A DNA stretch of 64,000 bases from an uncultured Bacteroidales bacterium (GTDB lineage: Bacteria > Bacteroidota > Bacteroidia > Bacteroidales > UBA932), in the NCBI GenBank assembly GCA_900316245.1, contig ONCE01000006.1:30701-94700 (forward strand), in the 5' to 3' direction. A program made the position numbers and the translations under genes. Under the pieces are notes generated by a model that did not search any database, was not told the origin of the DNA, and was given only the letters and a program-made list of their open reading frames with translations. Of the stretch, positions 1 through 31,327 are shown one piece after another; the stretch's first letter is position 1; each line of letters opens with the position of its first letter.

Positions 1-1549
1 AACGAATCTTCAAAGACTCCAGTTTGCGGAGTTCCATCTTCACGTCGTCGATTACGCCCACAGGAACATTTTCGGCGGCTATGATCTGTACTGTAGTCTG
101 GGGCTCTCCGGCCTTGTGGGCAGGAACAATGTCCTTGATCTGCTCCTTGGTGTAGATCTTACCGTTGTTCTCCACTTTGCCGTCAGGCAGGACCTTCAGC
201 ACTACAGCGGAGGATTGCTGAGCCTTGTCTGGAATGCGGATCATGAACGTTACGGGCTGGAAGAGCACGGTGGCCACGGGTTTGCCATCCTTCATGGCCG
301 GAGTCCAGTCAGGGGACTTTTCAATTGCTTTCACAACAATCTTGTCCAACTGTTCGCAGAGGCTGTTCATGATCTCAACGCTTCCCACCTTGCCGTCTTC
401 TCCAATGGTGAACATGGCCACCAGGGTGCCGTCGTAGAGACAGTCATTCGGGTATGCGATGCGGCCGGTAAGCCAATGGCCAAAGTTCTCACTGCAAACG
501 GGGGCCGTGTCAAAGTTCTTGCCGGCGGTGAGCTGGATGTCTCCCACATTGTTCACGTGGACCACATCCTCTTCTTTCACCGTAGCGGGAGCATACTTGA
601 CCACGGTCACTTTGTTAAGTACGTACTCGAATTTTTCATCGGCCGGGATTTTTTCACTATCTTTGTCCACCGGGACATAGACGGTCTTTGCCTGAAGGCC
701 TATGGCCAGGCACACGAGCGGGAGCAGGTAGAGCACCCGCAACCCTCTCACAAGGGGAGATTTGGATTTTGACATCATAGTAATACGATTTTTAAGGATA
801 CTGTGATTAAAGCTGTTAGCCACTGAGTAGCCGCTCTTGCTAACAGCTTTTCTTATTAGCAGATACTGATATTCCTTGATGTTGGTGCCTGCGCGGAGTA
901 CGGCGTCATCGGCCTCATATTCGTGCAACTCCTGAAGGTCTGCGCGAAGCATCCAGATAACCGGATTGAACCACTGGAAGGCCGAAAGCAGATCCACCAC
1001 CAGCAGCTCCAACGAATGTCCATAGGCAATGTGTGCCTTCTCGTGGGCAATGATGGAAGCGTGCGGGCCTTCCCAGTCCTGACGAGACAGAACAATGAAT
1101 TTCATCCAGCTGAAAGGATCGATGTCCCGGTCGGTCACGATGATGCGGCAGCCGTCTTCCTCGCTCACTACCTCTCCCTGCGCCACAATCTTCAAGATGG
1201 ACAGGATGGAGACGATCACCCTTATAATTACAAAGGCAACGCCTGCCCAGAAGAGGGCGGTGAGCGCCAAGGGCCACCAGGGGGCCGATACCTCCCCTGC
1301 CGGGCCCAGTTCCAGGGTCAGGGGCTCTTCGGCCTCGAAGAAGACGCTCTCTGCGGCCTTCACCACTTCAATGGGTTTATGGATGGTGACAATGCAGAGC
1401 GGCAGCAGGAAAGCCAGCACGGCGGTACTCACCAGCACAACCCGGTTGAACCGGTGGAAAGTTTCCTTCCGGAGCATCAGCCGGTAGAACATATAGAAAA
1501 GGACCAGGGCAATGGCCACTTTTACCTCATAGATAAGGAATGCAGGCAT
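1..1549 (-). CDS. BlaR1-like M56 metallopeptidase fused to TonB C-terminal and ExbD-like domains (partial, runs off left edge)
   Basis: A single frame of 516 codons is open from the ATG at 1549 to the window edge. Hydrophobic segments lie near residues 5-25, 37-56, 91-118 and 268-287. The M56 zinc-protease motif HEKAH is at residues 169-173, followed by a conserved FNP and a glutamate-rich HEYEADD stretch. After the fourth membrane segment a TonB C-terminal domain (about residues 370-437) is followed by a region that reads like the periplasmic ExbD/TolR domain (about 450-516: VLPDGKVENNGKIY, then VQIIAAENVPVGVIDDV). The start is one base after the blaI-like stop, so the two are co-transcribed. 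BlaR1 proteins sense cell-wall damage and cleave the BlaI repressor; what the TonB/ExbD tail does is inference. The true C-terminus lies outside the window. Confidence 0.85.
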   Translation of the reverse strand, partial: MPAFLIYEVKVAIALVLFYMFYRLMLRKETFHRFNRVVLVSTAVLAFLLPLCIVTIHKPIEVVKAAESVFFEAEEPLTLELGPAGEVSAPWWPLALTALFWAGVAFVIIRVIVSILSILKIVAQGEVVSEEDGCRIIVTDRDIDPFSWMKFIVLSRQDWEGPHASIIAHEKAHIAYGHSLELLVVDLLSAFQWFNPVIWMLRADLQELHEYEADDAVLRAGTNIKEYQYLLIRKAVSKSGYSVANSFNHSILKNRITMMSKSKSPLVRGLRVLYLLPLVCLAIGLQAKTVYVPVDKDSEKIPADEKFEYVLNKVTVVKYAPATVKEEDVVHVNNVGDIQLTAGKNFDTAPVCSENFGHWLTGRIAYPNDCLYDGTLVAMFTIGEDGKVGSVEIMNSLCEQLDKIVVKAIEKSPDWTPAMKDGKPVATVLFQPVTFMIRIPDKAQQSSAVVLKVLPDGKVENNGKIYTKEQIKDIVPAHKAGEPQTTVQIIAAENVPVGVIDDVKMELRKLESLKIR

Positions 1550-1550
1550 C

Positions 1551-1910
1551 TTATTTCTTTTTTTCTACCAGTTCAATGAGTTCCTTGAGTTCTTCCACGC
1601 TGATCTTCTCTTCCTTTACCAGGGCAGAGACAGCGCTGAGATAAGAGTTGTCAAAGTACTTGTCAATAAGGCCGATGAGCGACCGCTGCTTATACTCCTC
1701 CTTAGTAACCTTGGCAAAATACTGATAAGTAGGGCCGAAGGATTTGTGGTCCACAAACCCCTCCTCCTCCAGCGTACGCACCTGCGTGGACAGGGTGGAG
1801 AAGTGGGGCTGGGGTTCCGGATACAGTTCCCGGAGCTCCCTCACGAACAGGGGGCCCTTGTCCCAAAAGTGATTCATAATCACCTCTTCTTTCTTGGTCA
1901 GTCGTTTCAT
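1551..1910 (-). CDS. BlaI/MecI/CopY-family transcriptional repressor
   Basis: The 119-residue product has the BlaI layout: an N-terminal winged helix (LTKKEEVIMNHFWDKG, then STLSTQVRTLEEEGFV) and a C-terminal dimerisation helix region (residues about 80-119) where the cognate protease normally cuts. Family members are typically 115-130 residues, so it is full length. It is the first gene of a two-gene operon with the M56/TonB gene, one base apart. A -7 box and overlapping palindromes directly upstream suggest autorepression. The family call is firm; the regulated genes and the inducing signal cannot be read from the window. Confidence 0.9.
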   Translation of the reverse strand: MKRLTKKEEVIMNHFWDKGPLFVRELRELYPEPQPHFSTLSTQVRTLEEEGFVDHKSFGPTYQYFAKVTKEEYKQRSLIGLIDKYFDNSYLSAVSALVKEEKISVEELKELIELVEKKK

Positions 1911-2039: not shown

Positions 2040-2148
2040 CCGTGAAATGGAACCATCTCAGTTACTGATAATTACACAAATCCTCCTCCGCGTTTTGCAG
2101 AGGAGGATTTTCATAAAACACACTGTCTCAATCAGTTCCATTTCACGG
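2040..2148. repeat. 109-bp hairpin repeat, left copy (RAYT-associated, REP/REPIN-like)
   Basis: The outer ends are a perfect 14-bp inverted repeat, CCGTGAAATGGAAC at 2040-2053 against its complement at 2135-2148. Inside is an 11-bp perfect stem AAATCCTCCTC (2078-2088) / GAGGAGGATTT (2100-2110), extendable by GC/GC around a GTTTT loop. A same-length copy in inverted orientation lies at 4855-4963; about three quarters of positions agree. The element ends just upstream of a REP-associated transposase gene. The inner hairpin could also act as a terminator, but that would not explain the conserved outer arms. Confidence 0.8.
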
Positions 2149-2254
2149 TCCTAAAATGGCTCTTGCAGAATTAATAGGAAATACCCATCTTTGCTTTGCG
2201 GTTAAGGATGCCCGTAAACACTGCTACCACAAGTGGCAGAGAATTGACATACTT

Positions 2255-3178
2255 ATGAAGTACCGCACTTTTAAGAGTGGTATCTTGAACCACTGCTATC
2301 AAAGATCGGCCGACCACGGCCTCCTTTTCTACAGTCAAAGCGACTATCTGGTCTGGTTTACTACGGTTTGCACGGTCGCACCCCGTCACAATATCAAGAT
2401 TCTGGGGCTCTGCCCCATGCCCGACCATATCCATATGGCTGTGATTGCCCGGACTAAACAGGACCTTTCCCGTTTTGTGGGACAAGTGAACCGTACCTTC
2501 TCCAAACTTCAGAATGATGTCTGTCACCTGAAGTGGGCTTGGTTTGAAAAGCCCTTTGGAAGTGCCCCTAAGGAAGGAAGCAAAAACGGAAGGAACTGTC
2601 TTCTCTATGTGGGGAACAATCCCCCCGAGCGGCAATTGGCTCAGAGGGCCGAAGACTATCGCTGGACCTTCCTGGCTTATGCCGTGAGCAGACACCCGTT
2701 CTCAGAGAAACTCGTGATACGGAATTCTTCATGGCCCCTGCGACAGGCCGTTAAGGAAATACGCGCGCAGCGAATGGCTGGAAAACCGCTGAAATATAAT
2801 CTGTTACAACGCCTCTCTCAAAAGTTGGACGACCGGGAGAAAGAGCAATTAATAGATTATATCATCTGCATTTATGATGTAATTGATCATAAGGAAGCAC
2901 TCCGCTATTTTGATGGGAGTTACGAGAAAATGACCGCAGCATTGGCCCTCTCCACGGCCAAGGAGTACGATTTAAACGAAACGTTTGTGGGCTGGTCGGA
3001 TAAGCCATACGCTACAATGACCCATAAGATTATGGAGAAATACAAGTTGGACGACATTCACGAAATGCTCTCCTGGCCTCAGGAACAAAAAGCCCAGGCC
3101 TTCCGCTTTCTGAGAACAACAACCCGGTATATCCCAGAGCAAATTTCTAAATTTCTTCACTGGTGGGGAAAAATGTGA
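2255..3178 (+). CDS. REP-associated tyrosine transposase (RAYT, IS200/Y1-like)
   Basis: This is a Y1 HUH-type single-strand transposase of the RAYT group, which acts on hairpin REP sequences in known systems. The HUH motif is the HIH in CPMPDHIHMAV and the likely nucleophile is the tyrosine in LLYVGNNPPE, followed by the family's EDYRWTF stretch. A C-terminal segment (about the last 50 residues) ending RYIPEQISKFL looks like the DNA-binding tail seen in longer RAYTs. I prefer the ATG at 2255 (307 residues) because the family homology starts there; an in-frame ATG at 2156 would add 33 residues with no family resemblance. The gene lies between two inverted copies of a hairpin repeat, as expected for a RAYT. 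Confidence 0.85.
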   Translation: MKYRTFKSGILNHCYQRSADHGLLFYSQSDYLVWFTTVCTVAPRHNIKILGLCPMPDHIHMAVIARTKQDLSRFVGQVNRTFSKLQNDVCHLKWAWFEKPFGSAPKEGSKNGRNCLLYVGNNPPERQLAQRAEDYRWTFLAYAVSRHPFSEKLVIRNSSWPLRQAVKEIRAQRMAGKPLKYNLLQRLSQKLDDREKEQLIDYIICIYDVIDHKEALRYFDGSYEKMTAALALSTAKEYDLNETFVGWSDKPYATMTHKIMEKYKLDDIHEMLSWPQEQKAQAFRFLRTTTRYIPEQISKFLHWWGKM

Positions 3179-3216
3179 TTAACTTTTCACGATTTTTGCG
3201 TCTGATAGGGCAGAGT

Positions 3217-3705
3217 ATGGAAAACACGCTGGAAATAGAGCTCGCAGAAGTAAGGCCGAAGGTCCTGGCACTGACCCGGAAATTCTTCCGGGCATCGCGC
3301 CTGGAGGGAGACCCGGAAGACGTGGTGCAGGACGTCCTGATCCGTCTGTGGGAGGCCCGGCGCAGCGGGGCCGATATCCGGAATCCGGAGGCCTGGGCCG
3401 TTACCATCACCAAAAACGCCTGTGTGTCGCTCTGGCGAAAAGCCCGTTATAACCGGCAGGAGCCGCTTCCGCTGAGTCTCGCCTCTGCAGAAAGCGCGAC
3501 GCTCCCTATAGAGCAGGCCGAAGCCCGTCAGCGCGCCAACCAAGTATTGAACAGCGTACCGGTTGCCACCTTGCGCCTCCTCCAGCTCAAGGCCAGTGGC
3601 CTTTCGCTGGACGAAATAGCGGCCATTACCGGTCGGCCCAAGGGTAGCATCAAAGCCTCCATCTCCATAGCCAGAAAGGAACTGATTAAAAGTCTGCAGC
3701 AATAA
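3217..3705 (+). CDS. ECF-type RNA polymerase sigma factor
   Basis: The 162-residue product has a sigma-70 region 2 (GDPEDVVQDVLIRLWE, then NPEAWAVTITKNACVSLWRK) and a region 4 helix-turn-helix (LDEIAAITGRPKGSIKASISIARKEL). ECF factors of this size lack regions 1 and 3. An in-frame ATG at 3163 overlaps the transposase stop; I prefer 3217 because region 2 homology starts soon after it and the extra 18 residues are not sigma-like. The next gene, a one-pass membrane protein, starts one base after the stop, the usual place for the anti-sigma factor. What signal releases it is unknown. Confidence 0.9.
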   Translation: MENTLEIELAEVRPKVLALTRKFFRASRLEGDPEDVVQDVLIRLWEARRSGADIRNPEAWAVTITKNACVSLWRKARYNRQEPLPLSLASAESATLPIEQAEARQRANQVLNSVPVATLRLLQLKASGLSLDEIAAITGRPKGSIKASISIARKELIKSLQQ

Positions 3706-3706
3706 T

Positions 3707-4219
3707 ATGAATCGCAAAACCTTAATAGAAAGATATCTATCGGCCGATGCCACTCCTGAGGAAGAGCGTCTGCTGGCTCAGTCTTTCGCCTCCTTCCCTC
3801 CCGAGGGAGAAGAGGAAAAGGCCGTCGCGGAGCTTTTGGGCATCATCGGCCCTGTTGAGACGGAACCTCTGGAAGAGGCCTCAGACCAGTATGACAAGAT
3901 GGTCCGCCGTGCGCGCAAGCGGTCCATTAGAATCTGGAGCCTGACCTTTTCGGGTGTGGCTGCTGTTCTCCTGGCCGTGGTTTTCCTTCACCGGAAACCA
4001 GAGCCGGCTGACACGGAATCTCCCAGTACCATGGAATGGCTACAACAGCTTCAATTGATCTCCAATATGGACCCGGCCGAAGCCGAGGACTATGAGTTCA
4101 GGCCCGTTGGAGACGGTTTTATCATGACCGCCCGGTTTAAGGATGGCAGTGAGGCCTCCTACATCCTTACACCTATGGATGGCGGAAATACTTTCCATCT
4201 TGTATCCATGAATAATTAA
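3707..4219 (+). CDS. Single-pass membrane protein, probable anti-sigma factor
   Basis: The 170-residue product has an acidic N-terminal cytoplasmic part (about 1-70: LIERYLSADATPEEERLLAQSF), basic residues RRARKRS, one membrane helix (about 78-96) and a small periplasmic domain of about 70 residues. This topology, and a start one base after the ECF sigma stop, are typical of Bacteroidota anti-sigma factors. The opening resembles the 'ryl.g.at.eE...l' N-terminus of FecR-type regulators, but no FecR domain follows. Function is inferred from topology and position; I recognise no named family for the periplasmic part. Confidence 0.6.
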   Translation: MNRKTLIERYLSADATPEEERLLAQSFASFPPEGEEEKAVAELLGIIGPVETEPLEEASDQYDKMVRRARKRSIRIWSLTFSGVAAVLLAVVFLHRKPEPADTESPSTMEWLQQLQLISNMDPAEAEDYEFRPVGDGFIMTARFKDGSEASYILTPMDGGNTFHLVSMNN

Positions 4220-4230
4220 AAACAGCATCT

Positions 4231-4860
4231 ATGAAAAAGATACTCTTTATTATCGTCCTTATGCTCTGCTCCGTATGTTTATGGGGACAACAGACCATCT
4301 ATGTTATCGACAATGTGACCGTTGAACATTTTGACGGCTCGCAGCTGAAGGGAAAAACCATCGGCGATTACCAGATCACCACAACGGGAAAGGGCAACAA
4401 GGCCGTAACCGTCCACGCCATTACTACGGTAAAAAGAACCATGAGAAGCCAGATCATTGTCAATGATAATGGCAAGATCATTATGAAAACCGACTCTTTG
4501 TTGGCAAAATCCGGAGTGAATCATTTCGGTTCCGGTACTGGTCAAAACACTGTGTACATAGTTGACGGAAAAGTGGTGGAAGAATCCGAAGTCAAGAACC
4601 TGCCAACCAAACAGATTCAAAGTGTTACGGTGATCAAAGATTCCGAAAGCCTTAAGCAGTTCAACCTGGATGGGAGTTCTTCCGTTGTGAATATCATTAC
4701 CAAGAGTGAAGAGAGTGCCAAGGAATTACTTAAGTCCCTTCCCGGTGCCAAAGTTGAGGAGGACGGCACCGTAACCATCAACGGTCAATCCGTGAAAAAA
4801 ATCACTATCAATGGCCGCAATTACCAAGTAGCCCCCGCTTCCGCTCCCATTGAGCCGTGA
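4231..4860 (+). CDS. Secreted protein with two TonB-receptor plug-like segments
   Basis: The 209-residue product starts with a signal peptide (about 1-19, ending LWGQ). Two stretches resemble motifs otherwise found in outer-membrane TonB-dependent receptors: VYIVDGKVVEESEVKNLP with IQSVTVIKDSE and VVNIITK (plug-type, about 108-165), and LLKSLPGAKVEEDGTVTING with SVKKITINGR (about 167-200). There is no beta-barrel, so it is a plug without a pore. It is the fourth gene after the RAYT, 11 bases behind the probable anti-sigma gene, and its stop codon falls inside the right-hand 109-bp repeat. It could be a periplasmic partner or decoy of the sigma system; that is inference. Confidence 0.55.
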   Translation: MKKILFIIVLMLCSVCLWGQQTIYVIDNVTVEHFDGSQLKGKTIGDYQITTTGKGNKAVTVHAITTVKRTMRSQIIVNDNGKIIMKTDSLLAKSGVNHFGSGTGQNTVYIVDGKVVEESEVKNLPTKQIQSVTVIKDSESLKQFNLDGSSSVVNIITKSEESAKELLKSLPGAKVEEDGTVTINGQSVKKITINGRNYQVAPASAPIEP

Positions 4861-4963
4861 AACGGAACTAGTTAACATTCACTACTTTATACAAATCCTC
4901 CTCTGCGTTTTGCGGAGGAGGATTTTCGTAATTACCAGTAACTAAGACAGTTACATTTCACGG
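4855..4963. repeat. 109-bp hairpin repeat, right copy (inverted relative to the left copy)
   Basis: The ends CCGTGAAACGGAAC (4855-4868) and GTTACATTTCACGG (4950-4963) pair at 12 of 14 positions. The inner stem AAATCCTCCTC/GAGGAGGATTT is identical to the left copy. The flanking arms match the left copy only after reverse complementing, which fixes the inverted orientation. The stop codon of the plug-like gene overlaps its first bases. The inner hairpin ends in T-runs and may double as a terminator for both this operon and the xyl operon that converges on it. Confidence 0.8.
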
Positions 4964-4995: not shown

Positions 4996-6465
4996 CTAGA
5001 TATTTCCCTGCTGCTCGGGAGGGAGTTCCTTGCGCCAGAGGCGGGTCATGTCTTCGAGCGTCTTGCCCTTGGTCTCGGGCACCAGGCGCCACACGAAGAT
5101 GGCGGCGATGATGCAGATGACACCGTAGAGGGCGTAGGCGAAGAAATGGCCGAAGCTTTCACCCATAGCACCCAGCTTCATATTGTACATAGGCACGAAG
5201 GTGCTGGATACGATGAAGTTGAAAATCCACTGGAAGGCGACGGCGATGGCCGTGGCCTGGCTGCGGATGGTGTTGGGGAAGAGCTCGGCAATGTACACCC
5301 AGCAGATGGGACCCCAGCTGAACATAAAGCAGGCGCTGTACACCATAATGCTGATCACGGGTACCAGGGCCGGCATCGTTACCACGTTGCTCAGGGCAAC
5401 GCCCAGGGCGCCGATGGCCATACCGATGGAACCGGTGATGAGCAGGGGCTTGCGGCCCAGCTTTTCTACCGTGAAGACGGCTACCAGCGTGAAGGTGATG
5501 TTGATGATGCCCATAATGACCGTAAACAGCATATTGTCGCTTACGCCCATGGATTCAAAAATACGGGGCGCGAAGTACAGCACGGCATTGATGCCGATGA
5601 TCTGCTGGAATACGGACAGCATACAGCCGATGAAGATAACCAGGACGCCATAGGCGAAGAGGCTTTCCTTCTCTTCCTTGACAGTTTCGATGATGTCCAG
5701 CAGAATCTTTCTGCCCTGGCCTTCTCCGTTGATCTTGGAAAGGACCTCGAGGGCCTTGTCGTTCTGCTTGCGCAGCACCAGGTAACGGGGCGTCTCGGGC
5801 ACCAGGAGAATCAGGAGGGCGAAGAGTCCGGCGGGCACTGCCTCGGAAACGAACATCACTCTCCAGCCGATGGAATTGGTCCAGGCTACGATCTCAGGGT
5901 CGTTGGCGTGACTCTGGATGATGAGGAAGTTCACAAAGTACACCACCAGCTGACCGAAGATAATGGCAAACTGGTTCCAGGATACCAGGCGTCCGCGCTT
6001 GCGGGCCGGGGCAATCTCTGCAATGTACATAGGGCAGATGGCCGATGCGAGGCCCACGCCCACGCCGCCCAGGATGCGGTAGCCGTTGAAGGCTACGAGC
6101 AGGCCCTTGGAAGCGGCGCCCTTGGAAAAGAAGAGGAACTCGGGATAGTAGGAACCCAGGGCGCTCAGGAAGAAGAGGATACCCGCCACAAAGAGGGTTT
6201 TCTTTCTTCCGAAACGGTGGGCCAGCCTACCCGACAGAAGGGCACCGATCACGCAGCCGATAAGGGCGCTGGAGGTGGTGAAACCGTGCCAGCCGTCGGT
6301 GTAGGTGAAGTCCGGCGCGCTCTGGAAAAAGGCCTGGAGGCCTTTCTCCGCGCCGGAAATCACAGCTGTATCGTAACCGAAAAGCAGACCGCCTATGACC
6401 GCTACCAGCACAATGCTGACCAGGTACAGGACGCTGCCTTCCTGCTTGTAGGAACTACTTTGCAT
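4996..6465 (-). CDS. xylE: D-xylose:proton symporter, MFS sugar porter family
   Basis: The 489-residue protein has the sugar-porter signatures in order: GYDTAVISGAEKGLQ in helix 1, RFGRKKT after helix 2, PETPRYLV before the central loop, QQIIGINAVLYFAPRIF in helix 7, GRKPLLI, and PETKGKTLEDM after helix 12. The QQ(I)xGIN stretch lines the sugar site in XylE. The start overlaps the last 11 bases of xylA, so it is the third gene of a xylB-xylA-xylE operon, and the context supports xylose as substrate over other pentoses or glucose. It imports the sugar across the inner membrane. Confidence 0.9.
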   Translation of the reverse strand: MQSSSYKQEGSVLYLVSIVLVAVIGGLLFGYDTAVISGAEKGLQAFFQSAPDFTYTDGWHGFTTSSALIGCVIGALLSGRLAHRFGRKKTLFVAGILFFLSALGSYYPEFLFFSKGAASKGLLVAFNGYRILGGVGVGLASAICPMYIAEIAPARKRGRLVSWNQFAIIFGQLVVYFVNFLIIQSHANDPEIVAWTNSIGWRVMFVSEAVPAGLFALLILLVPETPRYLVLRKQNDKALEVLSKINGEGQGRKILLDIIETVKEEKESLFAYGVLVIFIGCMLSVFQQIIGINAVLYFAPRIFESMGVSDNMLFTVIMGIINITFTLVAVFTVEKLGRKPLLITGSIGMAIGALGVALSNVVTMPALVPVISIMVYSACFMFSWGPICWVYIAELFPNTIRSQATAIAVAFQWIFNFIVSSTFVPMYNMKLGAMGESFGHFFAYALYGVICIIAAIFVWRLVPETKGKTLEDMTRLWRKELPPEQQGNI

Positions 6466-22356: not shown

Positions 22357-23682
22357 TTATAGCAACTTGGCGGCCACTTCCGAGAGTTCGGAACGCTCGC
22401 CCTTGAGGAGGGAGATGTGCTGGAACAGGGGTTGTCCGTGCATCTTTTCTCCCAAGTGGGTGAGACCGTTACTCCACTGGTCCAGGAAGGGCTGGTCTAT
22501 CTGGTAGATATCTCCGGTGAACACCATCTTGGTGCCTTCGCCGGCGCGGGTGATGATGGTTTTGACCTCGTGCGGAGTGAGGTTCTGGGCCTCGTCCACA
22601 ATGAAGTAAACCTTGCCCAGGGAACGGCCGCGGATGTAGGCCAGGGGCGAGATGATGAGTTTCTCTTCCCTGATCATGGCGTCCAGTTTCTGGGACTGCT
22701 TGCTGCCGGGCTTGTAGCAGTGGCGGATTACCTCCAGGTTGTCCATCAGCGGCTGGATGTAAGGAGACATCTTGGTCTTCTGGTCTCCGGGCAGATAGCC
22801 GATATCCTGGCCTCCCAGCACCACGGTAGGGCGCGAGAGGATAATCTGGTCATAGTCGTTGGCCTGTTCCAGTGCGGCAGCCAGGGCAATGAGGGTCTTG
22901 CCCGTACCGGCGCCGCCGGTGATGGAAACCAGCGGAATCCTGGGATTGAGGCAGGCGTCCATGGCGAATTTCTGCTCGTCGTTGCGGGGACGGATGCCGG
23001 CGGCCGTCTGGGTGCGTACCAGAGCAATGACCCCACGGGAGGCATCGTAACGGGCGCAGACGTTTTCTCCGCCAAACACAAACTTGTACAGCTGGTTGGG
23101 TTTGGGTTCCTGCTCCTGCACCTCCTGCCAGGGGAGGCAGTTGTCCTGACCGTAGGCCAGGCGCTGCGTAGCTTCGGAAGATACTTCTACGGTAATGACC
23201 TCCTTCTCCAGGCTCATCATCACCTCGTCATCTACACGGTCCCTCAGGTAATCTTGGGCTTCCATGCCCACGGCTTTGGCCTTCAAGCGAAGGTTGATAT
23301 CCTTGGTGACCAGGGCCACGAAGCGGTCCGGGTTGTGGTCCCTTACCCACATGGCGGTGGACAGGATGCGGTGGTCCTGGGTGTCGTCCCGGAACAGGTC
23401 CTGGTACTTGGGGGCGAAGGGGTGATTGGGCTCCAGCTTGATGCAGCCCAGCTTTCGGCCCAGGTTGTAGCCCCGGTGGCCGTTGGGCTTGCGGTCCATC
23501 AGCTTGTTCATTTCCCGCATGAAGGAACGGGCGTTGAACGCCAGGGCGTCGTTGCCTTTCTTGAACTTGTCCAGTTCCTCCACCACGGCGATGGGAATCA
23601 CGATGTCATTATCCTGGAACTGCTTGATGGCATTGAAATCGTGCAGGATAATGTTGGTGTCTAAAACAAAAATCTTGGCCAT
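22357..23682 (-). CDS. PhoH-family protein (PIN domain + PhoH ATPase)
   Basis: The 441-residue protein has an N-terminal PIN nuclease domain (FVLDTNIILHD with the first acidic residue, then VVEELDKFKKG) and a C-terminal PhoH-type P-loop ATPase (Walker A GGAGTGKT, Walker B YFIVDEAQNL, then TGDIYQIDQPFLD). This PhoH2-like architecture is linked to RNA unwinding and cleavage. It starts two bases after the PurL-like gene, so the two form an operon ending at the hairpin at 22327-22344. Confidence 0.92.
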   Translation of the reverse strand: MAKIFVLDTNIILHDFNAIKQFQDNDIVIPIAVVEELDKFKKGNDALAFNARSFMREMNKLMDRKPNGHRGYNLGRKLGCIKLEPNHPFAPKYQDLFRDDTQDHRILSTAMWVRDHNPDRFVALVTKDINLRLKAKAVGMEAQDYLRDRVDDEVMMSLEKEVITVEVSSEATQRLAYGQDNCLPWQEVQEQEPKPNQLYKFVFGGENVCARYDASRGVIALVRTQTAAGIRPRNDEQKFAMDACLNPRIPLVSITGGAGTGKTLIALAAALEQANDYDQIILSRPTVVLGGQDIGYLPGDQKTKMSPYIQPLMDNLEVIRHCYKPGSKQSQKLDAMIREEKLIISPLAYIRGRSLGKVYFIVDEAQNLTPHEVKTIITRAGEGTKMVFTGDIYQIDQPFLDQWSNGLTHLGEKMHGQPLFQHISLLKGERSELSEVAAKLL

Positions 23683-23684
23683 AG

Positions 23685-24809
23685 TTAATCTTCCCCTTCC
23701 AGCGTGTTCAGAAGGGATTCAAGTATTTGTGGTATTTCTATACGGTTGGTCAGTTTCACTTCCGGATGGCCGGGAACGGGATGGCCGATGGGGAAGTAAA
23801 CCACATCCTGGAGGATGAGTTCGGCATCTACATAGTCATAGTCTATATCGGCTATCTGGATGAGCACGCCCGGCACCTCGGAGAAGAGGATGCGGACGGG
23901 ATGGTCCTCCCCATAGGATTTGGCGATTTCGCGGATGGAGACATCTGCTCCCGTACCGGCCGATGTCATAGCGCGGAGGGCCGTCAGGAGGCCTCCGTCG
24001 CCCACGGTGACGCCGGCTTTGACAATGCCGTCTTCCACCAGTTCCCGCAGCACTTCATAGCAGTCCATGAAATAGTCTGCATCGGCTACATCTGCCGGGG
24101 TGGAGGGATTAGCACCCACGGCCTGCGCCAGGGTAGAACCGCCCAGGCGGAAATCGCAAGGGTCGAAGGGAATATAGATAATCCAGTCCGAAGCTTCCGG
24201 TTGGAAAGAGGCCGAAGCCTTCCGGCGACGGCTCAAACGAGGATTGGCAGTACGGTAGGGCGTGTCTCGGAAGAGGTCTTCCTCTTCCTGCTGGGCATCC
24301 TCTTCCTCCAGCACCGTGCCGGCCTTGAAAGAGACGGAGGGCGCACCGGCAGTGAGGCTGTACTTCTCCAGCTTCACGCCCAGGGCATCTACATAGCTGC
24401 AGGCGGCTTCCACCGACTCATAGAAAGCGGCGGCGTGGCCCATATTCTTCTGGTTCCATTTCCAATCGGCCTTCAGCGTGAGGTCTCCCAGACGGAAGTG
24501 ACCGTTCATCCAGACAACGTCCAGCAGGGCCTGGGCCACCTTGGAGGCGGTGTACGGTCCGGCAAAGGGAAGGGGCAGGCTGCGGGAGCGCCTGAGGTCT
24601 TCCACGGCCACGGCGTACTCCTCGATGGCGCTTTCTTCAAACGAGAAAGAGTCCGGGGCAGGGTCCAGGTGTTCGTCGGCCAGGGTCTCGGGGTCTCCGT
24701 CCGGTTCCAGCGTAGGCTGAACCGTGCACTCCCGGAGCATCTGGGCCGGGGAAAGCGGCATAGGGATGCCGTCCAGAATGTAGCTGCTGTAGAGTAAATC
24801 TGCTGCCAT
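23685..24809 (-). CDS. Divergent AIR synthase/PurL-related protein
   Basis: The 374-residue protein resembles one half of a PurL/AIR-synthase-fold enzyme: HFRLGDLTLKADWKWN and GHAAAFYESVEAACSY in the N-terminal part, FRLGGSTLAQAVG (compare the LGGS of PurL), then TVGDGGLLTALRAMTSAG and VRILFSEVPGVLIQI. Between the halves is an acidic, arginine-rich linker (about 165-205). It is much shorter than bacterial FGAM synthases and I cannot see a full ATP site, so I would not call it PurL. It is co-transcribed with phoH, from a -7 box (TATATTTG) four bases before the ATG. Confidence 0.55.
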   Translation of the reverse strand: MAADLLYSSYILDGIPMPLSPAQMLRECTVQPTLEPDGDPETLADEHLDPAPDSFSFEESAIEEYAVAVEDLRRSRSLPLPFAGPYTASKVAQALLDVVWMNGHFRLGDLTLKADWKWNQKNMGHAAAFYESVEAACSYVDALGVKLEKYSLTAGAPSVSFKAGTVLEEEDAQQEEEDLFRDTPYRTANPRLSRRRKASASFQPEASDWIIYIPFDPCDFRLGGSTLAQAVGANPSTPADVADADYFMDCYEVLRELVEDGIVKAGVTVGDGGLLTALRAMTSAGTGADVSIREIAKSYGEDHPVRILFSEVPGVLIQIADIDYDYVDAELILQDVVYFPIGHPVPGHPEVKLTNRIEIPQILESLLNTLEGED

Positions 24810-24813
24810 ACCC

Positions 24814-24852
24814 CAAATATAAGCATTTTTCCATTAATATTGGTTATCTTTG
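24814..24852. promoter_or_regulatory. Divergent -7 boxes for the PurL-like/phoH operon and folC
   Basis: TATATTTG on the minus strand at 24821-24814 is followed by GGGT and the ATG at 24809. TATCTTTG on the plus strand at 24845-24852 is followed by TATT and the ATG at 24857. Both leave four bases between box and start codon, so both mRNAs are predicted to be leaderless. Confidence 0.6.
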
Positions 24853-29200: not shown

Positions 29201-31327
29201 GCCATGGTTTCTGATGCGATTTCTGTGGAAGAAGTAGCCGAGGAGGCCCTCCCTTTCCAGTCTATTGAAATGCGTGTGGGTGGGGATAAAAATGCAAGGG
29301 CCGATTTTTCCACCGCCCTTACCTTCCAGCCGCATCTGCGTCCTTCGGCCGACGGAACGCTGGAGTTCAGTTTCCGCACTTCCGATAAACTGTCTACCTA
29401 TTATGTGCGCGTGTACGCGCACGATAAGGAGATGCATAACGCCGTCTGCGAGAAGGAGATGGTGGTCTCCCTGCCGGTGAAAGTGTCCCTGCTGGAGCCC
29501 CGCTGTCTCTATGCCGGAGACGTCTATGAGGCCGCCGTCACGGTGTCCTCCGTGGCCGATAAGCCCGTTTCGGGCGTGATAATGCTCAAGGCAGGGGAGT
29601 CTGTGCAGCAGATTCCCGTTACGGTGAATCCCGGTGCCACGGAAACCCGTCGTTTCACCGTAAAGATCCCCGATCAGGTCGGGGATGACGAGGGCTCGTC
29701 ATTCCCGGCTCCGACCGGGAATCTCGTCCTGACGGCTTCCTTTGTGGCCTCCGAGTTCTCGGATGCCGTGCAGGTTACCGTGCCGGTGTATCCGGCGGCT
29801 CAGGTGCTTACGGAGGCTCACTCCGCCGTGCTGCGGGACGGCACGGACCGGAATGCCCTGCTGGAGGAACTCCGCTCCCGTTTTGTGAATGTTCCGGCCT
29901 CTGAGGCCACCCTCCGGGAAATCACCGTCCTGGATCTGGTCAAGGACGCCATCCCGTCCCACGTGGATCCTCGTGGAGACGACGTCCTGTCCCTCTCCGA
30001 GGCCTGGTATACAGGGCTTATGGCTTCCGTCATACCGGGCACCGAAGGAGTGAGCGTATCTCCCCATCTCCTGGAGAAGATTCTGGCTTGCCAGAACGGC
30101 GACGGCGGCTTTGCGTGGTTCCCGGGAATGAATTCCAACGCCATCATCACGGCCGTGCTGCTGGAGCGCTTTGCACTGCTGCGGGACCGCGGGTTTGAGG
30201 TTCCGGATGTTACAAGGGCTGTCAAGTTCCTGGACAGCAAGCAGTTCGGCGCGGCCTTCCCGATCTGGAGCGGCTGGGTGAGCGATGCCCAGTATATGCG
30301 GGTCCGCGCCCTTTATCCGGAGGTGCCGTTTGAGGTGAAACCCGTATCGGCCACCGAAAAGAAGCGTCTGGCCGAATTTAAGAAATATGCCAAGGAATAC
30401 CTGACTCCGTCCAGGAAGTCCGGTCGCGGACTGGAGGGGCAGATTCTTTCCAAGGCCCGCCGGCTCCTGACCCTTCGGTGCCTGAACGCTTCGGCCCAGG
30501 GCAAGGCGCTGGCAGGTGCGTGGGGAATCGGCCTGTCTTCCAAGCTGGAGAAATCCATACAGGCCGATGTGACCTCTCTGCTGGAGTATGCCGTGGAGCA
30601 TAGGGACGGCGGCTGGTACTATCCCAACGCCGTGATGCCTTTCCGTGGGCTTCTGGAAAGCGAAGCCTACGCCCACGCCCTCCTCTGTCAGTTGCTGTCT
30701 GTCATAACGAGCGAAGCGAGTGTATCTCCTTCCGTCATTGCCGACGGCATCCGCCTGTGGCTTATGCTGCAAAAGGAGACGCAGAAGTGGGATACGGATC
30801 CGGCTTTTGTAGATGCCATTACCGCCATCCTGGACGGCTCTGAGGCTGTTCTGAATACGCGGGTGCTGGCACTTTCGGCCACCTACGAGGCCCCGTTCGA
30901 GAATATCCAGGCCAGTGGAAACGGCTTTACCGTGGAGCGCAAGTTCTATAAGATGACGGACAAGTGGGAACCCCTCCTGCCCAATGAAACCGTGAAGGTG
31001 GGAGACAAGATCAGAGTGGTGTACGCCATCTGGAATGCCGAGAACCGCAGTTTTGTGAAACTTACCGCCGGCCGCGAGGCTTCGCTCCGTCCCGTGGAGC
31101 AGCTTTCCGGCTACGTGGGCTTCTATAGGGGATATCGCAATGTGAAGGCATCGGCCACCGAGTTCTATTTTGATTCCTATCCGGAAGAGAAGACGGAACT
31201 CTCCGAGGAGTTCTTCGTGACCCAGGCCGGCCGGTTTGTGGCCCCCGTCACCGTCATCGAGAGCCTCTACGCCCCCCACTACCGCGCCAACTCCTCCTTC
31301 CGCCCGCCCCTAGTGGTAGCCCAATAA
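26276..31327 (+). CDS. Large secreted alpha-2-macroglobulin-like protein without a thioester
   Basis: The 1683-residue product has a signal peptide (1-20, ending AAAN), a helical repeat-like N-terminal region (about 25-330), macroglobulin domains (MG2-like YKDQGAYHPGDTVRFKAILYE near residue 485; FRVDEFALPAFTLRFD), an A2M-type central domain (LRPSADGTLEFSFRTSDKLSTYYVRVYAHD) and an alpha-toroid region (CQNGDGGFAWFPGMNSNAI). The CxEQ thioester motif expected before the toroid is absent, so covalent trapping of proteases is unlikely. At least four short palindromic elements are embedded in frame (about residues 1130-1150, 1251-1263 and 1476-1485). It probably sits in the periplasm or outer membrane. 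Confidence 0.8.
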   Translation: MRKLLITTLLALAGLFPVAAANDKGHVLNDLWDKYEEARKADRPQKEAEILADIRQKAQRQHLPVDFYDAATLYVNTVQRRDWKQGDALREELQKEVERFNDPVVTFLWMREWKRASTNDIWTYVKDHAKDFKGHHPALHRGVDSFLNGALKPFIRSDKEFALWNLLGSSRSNDALQEELYKALKADLNGSYPGDGALEYYLLSRKYNLVADRPKKKAALQALQNQYAGKALGLFPEADLLLLQKEDLDETKADEKQYKDLDEACKLFENRRKGYTGAEATLAKACTGVSFLMSQLEEEGLDVLVDSSRIQVLFRNLYHANLTLREGKRTIKTWKVANFDRSFYVQDTVSVDLPELPDGDYTVEAVSGKHSVQEEYTRYTLSLAVRQDALGRSVYVADYKTGEPLPMVSFRLLKGDMEVAGTSLRMNGFTLLPEAFVKPVSQDRRTYYSIQAVSGDRRSQPLTLRSGSDYTGDGKQVQCHIYKDQGAYHPGDTVRFKAILYESEASHMSVCKGKSVNVFLRDQENKVIETLRLTTNEWGSVSGRFVLPKGHKNGYFSLEVEGLCYDWFRVDEFALPAFTLRFDSVEQVFLPGDEIPVSGSLISYSGHNLTGAKALLQVTRNGSIVYEEEQTFGSDNRFFFAFQALETGYYKVRVRVVDGTGETQEFSDGHYVTSSLAVYPRFPDEVENASGAQHLIGGKQLNVVLEVYDGSGYKSQVPVTYQLYSWKDALLAQGTIPSGETLSLSLPGSGVYKLHTQAEVRMKDGTPVKGESKEEILCLLPGEEKLPEGALKVFLPMETTVPAGGSIAACLGHSLGKIYAQVALYGENRQLLESRPMIVEKGQLGRMGLPYLDSYPDAVRLEVFYFFDGGVTHERREFRRQKAQHTLPLSFFRFQDKAFPGTLYSFKVKTEPGAEALVAAWDKSLDAVAKNDWRMVSTQDVSVPFVSTSSICGTAGRSRPRLKYSLATKGVNRSSAMVSDAISVEEVAEEALPFQSIEMRVGGDKNARADFSTALTFQPHLRPSADGTLEFSFRTSDKLSTYYVRVYAHDKEMHNAVCEKEMVVSLPVKVSLLEPRCLYAGDVYEAAVTVSSVADKPVSGVIMLKAGESVQQIPVTVNPGATETRRFTVKIPDQVGDDEGSSFPAPTGNLVLTASFVASEFSDAVQVTVPVYPAAQVLTEAHSAVLRDGTDRNALLEELRSRFVNVPASEATLREITVLDLVKDAIPSHVDPRGDDVLSLSEAWYTGLMASVIPGTEGVSVSPHLLEKILACQNGDGGFAWFPGMNSNAIITAVLLERFALLRDRGFEVPDVTRAVKFLDSKQFGAAFPIWSGWVSDAQYMRVRALYPEVPFEVKPVSATEKKRLAEFKKYAKEYLTPSRKSGRGLEGQILSKARRLLTLRCLNASAQGKALAGAWGIGLSSKLEKSIQADVTSLLEYAVEHRDGGWYYPNAVMPFRGLLESEAYAHALLCQLLSVITSEASVSPSVIADGIRLWLMLQKETQKWDTDPAFVDAITAILDGSEAVLNTRVLALSATYEAPFENIQASGNGFTVERKFYKMTDKWEPLLPNETVKVGDKIRVVYAIWNAENRSFVKLTAGREASLRPVEQLSGYVGFYRGYRNVKASATEFYFDSYPEEKTELSEEFFVTQAGRFVAPVTVIESLYAPHYRANSSFRPPLVVAQ
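29664..29690 (-). repeat. CGTCAT-type palindromic element, in frame inside the A2M-like gene (copy 1)
   Basis: The arms ATCCCCGA and TCGGGGAT flank a five-base centre; ends are AGAT and GACG. The 27 bases are identical to the reverse complement of 60841-60867. It encodes IPDQVGDDE within the protein. Confidence 0.8.
29697..29726 (+). repeat. CGTCAT-type palindromic element (copy 2, opposite orientation to copy 1)
   Basis: CGTCAT, then arms TCCCGG and CCGGGA around CTCCGA, then ATCTCG. It lies six bases after copy 1 in the opposite orientation and encodes SSFPAPTGNLVL. Confidence 0.75.
30028..30062 (+). repeat. CGTCAT-type element (copy 3), in frame
   Basis: Begins CGTCATACCGGGC and ends GAGCGTATCTC; the arms are only partly complementary. 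It encodes VIPGTEGVSVSP. Its ends match the family, the centre is diverged. Confidence 0.5.
30701..30728 (+). repeat. GTCAT-type element (copy 4), in frame
   Basis: GTCATAACGAGCGAAGC and GAGTGTATCTC. The class GTCAT..CGAGCGAAGCGAG..ATCTC is a familiar dispersed-repeat pattern in bacterial genomes. It encodes VITSEASVSP. Confidence 0.5.

Follow-up and report, generated by a model that had tools for sequence, protein, structure and literature searches.

Can repeats of a kind believed to mobilise nothing but themselves also mark the places at which blocks of genes are shuffled? The question is raised by a locus in a 64,000-nt stretch of DNA (the window, positions 30,701 to 94,700 of contig ONCE01000006.1) from an uncultured Bacteroidales bacterium, whose genome assembly totals 2.24 Mb in 35 contigs. 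Two palindromic elements of 109 nt here bracket a RAYT gene and a small regulatory operon, and the original prediction, made from the sequence of the window, was that the RAYT may move, or may have captured, this operon as a composite unit. The locus suggests that such repeats may indeed mark sites of block shuffling. We consider it probable, although well short of certain, that it is an atypical Bacteroidales REPtron with a captured operon, and that its element-bounded blocks have been re-joined by recombination between elements. Below, the source genome is called own and its relatives G200 to G206 (eight genomes together); C and L numbers denote contigs and fetched loci.

The features of the bracketed unit are as follows (window coordinates; R1 is a covariance model of the element family, built from 22 copies of a single lineage):

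2040..2148, no strand: 109-nt palindrome on the left, REPIN-like, separating mecI from the RAYT gene; 108 bits with R1, and supported by folding
2255..3178, + strand: predicted RAYT-type HUH/Y1 single-strand endonuclease of 307 aa, from Y1_Tnp, HIH and Tyr residues, and fold; a longer reading frame runs from 2156
3179..3203, + strand: ECF-type promoter-like motif TTAAC...TTTTTGCGTCT, conserved, directly abutting the RAYT stop codon
3217..3705, + strand: ECF sigma factor; Sigma70_r2 1.8e-12, NF058625 3e-24 (below its cut-off); the reading frame can begin at 3163
3707..4219, + strand: probable anti-sigma factor, from its position and one likely membrane segment (by eye)
4231..4860, + strand: secreted plug-domain-like protein; matches Plug at 2.4e-4 (22.0 bits; cut-off 23.9)
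4855..4963, no strand: 109-nt palindrome on the right, separating the plug gene from the MFS gene; 105 bits with R1, and supported by folding

As predicted, the elements are equal in length, and four open reading frames (RAYT, ECF sigma factor, probable anti-sigma factor and plug-like secreted protein) lie between them on the same strand. Folded as single-stranded DNA, the elements have z scores of -7.8 and -6.7, with 0 of 200 shuffles equally stable for either, and both contain the inner stem AAATCCTCCTC/GAGGAGGATTT. The predicted 14-bp outer arms pair fully on the left (14/14) but at 12/14 positions on the right (counted by eye). The elements were also said to be inverted to each other and about three quarters identical. 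They are 76% complementary as an inverted pair, but direct alignment gives a matching 75-76% over the 109 nt, and the direct-repeat families D1 and D2 have a single common spacing, 2815. Since each element is an imperfect palindrome, their mutual inverted orientation carries no information, and it was dropped as evidence. A terminator scan of the sequence did not flag the elements. A third element lies outside the window (C10:30133-30241), left of it past mecR, so that the mecI-mecR pair is bracketed by elements as well. The longest exact stretch common to these three elements is 23 nt; they fall within 5.5 kb at the RAYT, and the other ten places in the own genome are scattered.

The call of a RAYT with an HIH motif and a catalytic Tyr is borne out by Pfam, residue conservation and predicted fold. 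The protein matches Y1_Tnp (8.5e-7, 29.6 bits, above the cut-off of 23), and its 31.9 bits with NCBIfam NF047646, REP_Tyr_transpos, against a cut-off of 80, make it a distant relative of that model. In the 307-aa form H58 and H60 (HIH, residues 58-60) and Y118 are invariant in 40/40 aligned relatives, and the motifs read DHIH and YVGNNP. The predicted structure (pLDDT 93) has as its best PDB match 4er8_A, a RAYT bound to a REP hairpin (TM 0.72 by target, 0.41 by query), which is the sole match with E<=0.001; the next are mostly IS200/IS605 transposases. Past about residue 160 of 307 the protein is all-helical, and a Pfam and NCBIfam search of this part gave nothing above cut-off. Comparison of the RAYT with PHROGs and with PDB sequences gave nothing useful, and the plasmid search gave no match. 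Cleavage of single-stranded DNA by the RAYT is predicted and unproven. Its gene was said to start just after the left repeat; the frame is open from 2156, but ATG 2255 is the likelier start because most homologues align from about residue 30-45 of the long frame onward. Judged by sequence, the RAYT is single-copy of its type. The next RAYT in the own genome is 45% identical, and those compared within single genomes are 38-59% identical to one another, which rules out IS-like spread; several near-identical copies at unrelated sites, as in IS200/IS605, are not seen.

The 109-nt elements are likely the cognate repeats of this RAYT. R1 finds 13 places in the own genome (26 strand-wise matches), 12 of them scoring 72-108 bits and the C17 copy 42, and it matches in all eight genomes of the related set. 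Across the genus the element family tracks the RAYT family: among 200 genomes, 116 have R1 matches (at most 19 taken in per genome) and 117 a strong RAYT match (E<1e-20; 16 genomes with a weaker match were entered as without RAYT). Both occur in 98 genomes, RAYT alone in 19, element alone in 18 and neither in 65 (Fisher 4e-19). Of 44 RAYT loci outside the own lineage, 25 have an element recognised by R1 or by a palindrome scan within 400 nt upstream and 32 have one within 400 nt downstream; elements flank the RAYT on each side at 19 loci and on one side or more at 38. These counts are likely lower bounds because R1 comes from one lineage. (Seven own-lineage loci, and L036, L051 and L137 with short flanks, were left out, and duplicate loci counted once.) By itself the palindrome scan finds elements at 18/52 upstream and 21/53 downstream flanks, against 0/210 block-shuffled stretches. 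Outer arms and inner stem vary by RAYT lineage, and the two sides of one RAYT, wherever both were found, mostly agree. Genus-wide co-occurrence and flanking elements thus both support the predicted association of the RAYT with palindromes of its own.

L077 (G203:C6) and L069-L070 (G201) contain further palindromes that equal the elements in length but whose stems are unrelated (arms CCTGGCAAC... and GCGTGGAG...); these presumably belong to other RAYT lineages. Several of ten RAYT loci inspected have another gene between the RAYT and the further element. In two genomes (L033:410-1375, L038:428-1369) a GAF-like gene, possibly MsrC by eye, stands with a RAYT between two elements and is possibly another captured gene. 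Lipoprotein-like genes (by eye) beside RAYTs at L046:2571-3689, L045:2482-3567 and L058:2479-3723 each overlap an element at one end. A sequence of about 43 bp beside one element (L013:3134-3177) has dozens of high-identity copies in the four relatives searched and forms a separate repeat family.

In a lineage of four genomes, the RAYT is joined to a sigma/anti-sigma/plug operon that keeps its own promoter motif. Every genome found to carry a RAYT of at least 90% identity (4/4, counting own) has the fusion, and the next three (70-82%) lack it. Among the eight genomes tested, the sigma operon occurs in own and G200-G202, with one copy of the anti-sigma gene in each, and is absent from G203-G206. 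When 400 genus genomes were searched for the RAYT at E<=1e-110, nine matched, with no new close member among them (next 57-58%). The anti-sigma protein was searched for in 300 genus genomes; 47 matched, and the best 20 (E<=1.2e-32) were followed, two of them own-lineage (G000, G209). All 18 others have sigma upstream and a plug-like sequence downstream. None has a RAYT in the DNA fetched (up to 1.5 kb on each side for 18; 5-10 kb in total for 15). Among those 15, G232 carries an element of lower score (46 bits) that lies 66 nt beyond the plug gene match. The sigma operon is thereby ruled out as a regular RAYT partner. Separation of the RAYT and sigma genes in relatives, which the original prediction had named as telling against it, is therefore seen outside the own lineage (0/18 together) but not within it (4/4 fused). 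The sequence TTRAC ... TGCGTCT, which we take to be an ECF-type promoter, stands upstream of sigma in all 19 loci inspected by eye, and ATG 3217 is the likelier sigma start because it sits downstream of this motif. Operon homologues without a RAYT, together with the promoter that was kept, argue that an ordinary operon was joined to a RAYT; the joining probably happened once. For one lineage, then, the idea of a captured regulatory operon is supported. The anti-sigma candidate has no Pfam or NCBIfam match above cut-off, and the plug stop codon falls within the right element, as had been noticed (frame end 4860, element from 4855).

Whether the unit also moves bears on its neighbours, which in the window are:

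2..1549, - strand: MecR/BlaR-like membrane sensor, named from position and a look at the sequence; runs on left of the window; homologues in three relatives
1551..1910, - strand: MecI/BlaI-type repressor (Penicillinase_R 2.3e-24), with mecR a neighbouring element-bounded module
4996..6465, - strand: sugar MFS transporter of the xyl operon (Sugar_tr 1.4e-116), the right-hand anchor

In the relatives, genes were located by tblastn and tRNAs by ARAGORN, ALDH was placed separately, and elements come from model and similarity searches; G209, G328, G325, G231, G222 and G215 share coordinates with G201, G200, G202, G203, G204 and G205, respectively. The locus maps are given here (REARRANGEMENT; E, element; > and <, gene direction):

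own: nitro< ALDH> SDR> E mecR< mecI< E RAYT> sig> anti> plug> E MFS< xylA<
G200: SDR> E mecI> mecR> E plug< anti< sig< RAYT< E MFS< xylA<
G201: SDR> E mecI> mecR> E plug< anti< sig< RAYT< E tRNA-Leu<
G202: SDR> E plug< anti< sig< RAYT< E tRNA-Leu<
G203: tRNA-Leu> nitro> E RAYT< E mecI> mecR> E MFS< (no sigma operon)
G205: tRNA-Leu> E RAYT> E nitro< ALDH> SDR> E MFS<

The 2.9-kb block and the mecI-mecR block differ in order and orientation among these close relatives, each remaining intact (RAYT-sigma-anti-plug in 4/4 genomes, mecI-mecR in 4/4). The plug end faces MFS in own, mecR in G200 and G201, and SDR in G202; the RAYT start faces mecI in own and G203, MFS in G200, and tRNA-Leu in G201, G202 and G205. 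An element is present at all ten of these junctions. Own and G200 are most simply related if each of the two modules was flipped where it stood, with the anchors on either side unchanged.

The halves of the elements serve as tags of junction origin. The spacer of a half-element has its best match elsewhere at the same gene end in 41/76 comparisons, which are not independent; permutation gives a mean of 13.4 and a maximum of 36 in 5000 trials (13.6 and 34 when whole elements are permuted). Plug-end spacers agree at 89-96% in four genomes with three different partners. Because half-elements follow gene ends, many breakpoints would lie inside elements. Two G200 elements have an exact common tract of 71 nt, from the inner stem to the element end, and two in G201 have one of 34 nt. 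The rearrangements look like recombination within elements, not like IS-like insertion.

Such exact tracts also invite the suspicion that short-read contigs were mis-joined at repeats, the relatives being contigs of records of the metagenome-assembled genome (MAG) type and the G200 map spanning two contigs that both end in RAYT. We regard misassembly as very improbable. The own three elements share at most 23 nt exactly, which would be short for usual k-mers, and junctions recur between genomes: mecR-plug and SDR-mecI in G200 and G201, mecI-RAYT in own and G203, and RAYT-tRNA-Leu in G201, G202 and G205.

Silent-site divergence (dS) separates the cargo from its surroundings. Between own and relatives, sigma, anti-sigma and plug give 0.03-0.17 in 9/9 comparisons, the RAYT 0.22-0.46 and mecI 0.28-0.30; background medians are 0.47 for G200 (n=17, minimum 0.23), 0.79 for G201 (n=12, minimum 0.09) and 0.62 for G202 (n=10, minimum 0.25). 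(The coverage limit was 0.25, down from 0.5, and antisense and overlapping frames were removed by hand; in place of own 9847+, 11382+ and 11846+ the true MFS, xylA and xylB were used, and in place of 1508+ ALDH; rows L018 1759-, L018 3076-, L021 2320- and L022 456+ were dropped.) The 0.09 to G201 comes from L018:2711-3091 (own C13), a gene end overlapping another element, with 0.73-1.17 in the three genes to its left. These values point to a recent exchange of the cargo between species. At the C13 element, the outer 38 nt are identical in both halves, possibly another exchange at an element. The mecR-like gene (window 2-1549; L025:3228-4775) has a dN of 0.14-0.17 to G200 and G201, against 0.01 for mecI, and DNA matching is partly lost; a domain replacement is possible.

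Low cargo divergence, far under background as after a recent transfer, is what a composite transposon would also show, the RAYT recognising both outer elements and moving all between them to new sites or species. Consistent with the original prediction of such a unit, the block changes neighbours and orientation as a whole, with its content kept in 4/4 genomes and elements at the changed junctions. We nevertheless find it improbable. Each of the four genomes has a single anti-sigma copy, the RAYTs within a genome are too dissimilar for IS-like copies, and every location is among the same neighbours (SDR, MFS, tRNA-Leu, mecI-mecR), with no far jump seen. The excess of RAYT over cargo dS implies that the unit has not moved as one piece each time, and the pattern resembles recombination. 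None of the relatives was found to have an empty site, with a clean footprint, for the 2.9-kb unit as a whole. The direct joining of xyl and bla genes without the unit, to which the original prediction had looked, is nearly seen in G203, where mecR faces MFS across one element, but the RAYT is there at the other side of mecI; in G205, SDR meets MFS across one element, but its RAYT is close by. Empty sites are seen for single elements: own C22:21412 is missing from the joined site in G200, and the C18 element is missing in G201, where its flanks are 22 nt apart against 223 (in G202, 89 against 214). The elements therefore come or go.

Recombination between elements, the reading that we prefer, has to be set against controls and exceptions. 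A number of results weigh against it. In 20 kb of the window without elements, own and G200 are collinear for 13.5 kb, but a 2.4-kb segment there (window 22357-24831) has one orientation in own, G200 and G203 and the opposite one in G201 and G202, with no elements at its ends in own, G201 or G202; this inversion also counts against composite movement. The flanks of C22:21412 are not adjacent in G201, G202 and G203, and the fetched stretches contain no element. Distant elements keep both flanks in 5/5 possible comparisons (C13 in G200 and G201, C4 in G202, C20 and C24 in G200). The half-elements do not follow the gene end in 35/76 comparisons, among them the ends of mecI in own and of mecR in G203; some exchanges therefore took place elsewhere or are due to conversion. 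No element is nearby at 6/44 RAYT loci outside the own lineage. Stem pairing in the 22-element alignment is not above chance, its percent paired being reached by 176/500 shuffles, a covariation measure that is uninformative because the stems hardly vary. All compared genomes appear to be MAGs.

The control inversion is made less clean by a weak family member in G203, which has the own orientation (38 bits, L173:2188-2296, at one inversion end). In G202 a short inverted repeat (about 14 bp) lies near the ends of the same segment. Regional changed junctions without an element in the model listing are nitro start/tRNA-Leu in G203 and SDR/tRNA-Leu in G204, and the flanks of element C33 were not found as a pair in G200-G203. 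Beside the own elements C20 and C24 there are about 0.4 and 0.85 kb extra relative to G200; this DNA (L022:3070-3476, L021:3190-4037) is partly repeated and absent in G200. On these controls the elements cannot be the sole inversion sites, and we confine the claim to the RAYT cluster; the inversion, which lacks elements in the genomes that differ, and the stable distant elements weaken the case that rearrangement is specific to the RAYT.

These controls lend weight to another account, in which the elements are passive sequences at operon ends, the places at which a rearrangement has to break if it is to survive, inversion is ordinary inverted-repeat recombination and the RAYT is irrelevant to the shuffling. 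The inversion without elements and the separated flanks of C22:21412 fit it, as do the stable distant elements, expected if only nearby pairs give tolerable inversions. We judge it unlikely, though it deserves to be kept in mind: half-elements follow gene ends above chance, with breakpoints inside the elements and not merely beside them, and three elements are clustered at the RAYT while the other places are scattered.

Under recombination between elements, the following course may be proposed. Two elements a few kb apart would recombine in the self-complementary inner stem, and blocks would thereby be inverted and re-joined; because each element is palindromic, any pair could do so in both orientations. 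Nicks made by the RAYT in exposed hairpins of the elements would promote this recombination, but exchange between inverted repeats by the ordinary route is possible too. The cargo operon would then have spread between species, perhaps through recombination bounded by the 3' part of the RAYT gene and the right element. A stronger version, in which the RAYT and its repeats form a cassette shuffler whose cutting at elements flips, re-orders and passes on blocks such as the sigma operon and mecI-mecR, seems to us rather unlikely; if true, a "domesticated" transposase would drive regulatory gene flow between species.

The locus bears on what RAYTs do for the cells that carry them and on the part that REP elements may play in gene order. 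It is a compact natural experiment, with six related genomes, differing orders and element halves that tag the origin of junctions. Should the RAYT drive the shuffling, a repeat believed to spread nothing but itself would be a mover of genes too; otherwise the locus is still evidence that palindromes of the REPIN type can act as sites of inversion.

Gene blocks between inverted sites that occur in either orientation are familiar from the shufflons and invertible DNA of Bacteroidales. The element-bounded blocks described here likewise occur in either orientation, but the inversions are between species and not within a population.

TIRYTs and TIRtrons, as outlined by Di Nocera (2013; PMC3733652), combine a RAYT-like protein with partly self-complementary inverted repeats that are not GTAG REPs, as here. 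They differ in the GGGGWSAS motif, which neither window element can contain, as neither has a GGGG or CCCC run. TnpAY1 subclass 2.6 is mostly from Bacteroidetes and flanked by "atypical secondary structures" (Quentin, 2018; PMC6006769). The phylum agrees, as do the atypical gene-flanking structures with genomic copies; the protein does not, with 307 aa, DHIH and YVGNNP here against about 179 aa, NH[LIV]H and YIH[QN]NP.

The closest comparison is with the REPtron, in outline a gene for a RAYT (TnpAREP) with REP or REPIN sequences on its flanks (Nunvar, 2010, PMC2817692; Bertels and Rainey, 2011, PMC3116915; Quentin, 2018, PMC6006769). The E. coli TnpAREP is described as cleaving and recombining single-strand REP in vitro (PMC8266576). 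RAYTs with flanking repeats have been published, as have atypical structures next to RAYTs of Bacteroidetes; literature searches gave no paper whose title or opening lines of abstract describe a cargo operon in a REPtron or block shuffling at RAYT elements. The present locus differs in having no conserved GT[AG]G at the hairpin foot in the 22-element alignment (by eye): GTAG and GTGG are absent from the + strand of both window elements, and the one CTAC, in the right element, is off the foot. It differs also in its single nested palindrome of 109 nt, its low copy number (13), the long helical C-terminal part of its 307-aa protein, the operon inside the bracket and the block order shuffled at elements. 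It is alike in other respects: an HUH/Y1 protein with the fold of a REP-bound RAYT, flanking palindromes of its own with dispersed copies, and RAYTs that within one genome are distinct and not IS-like copies.

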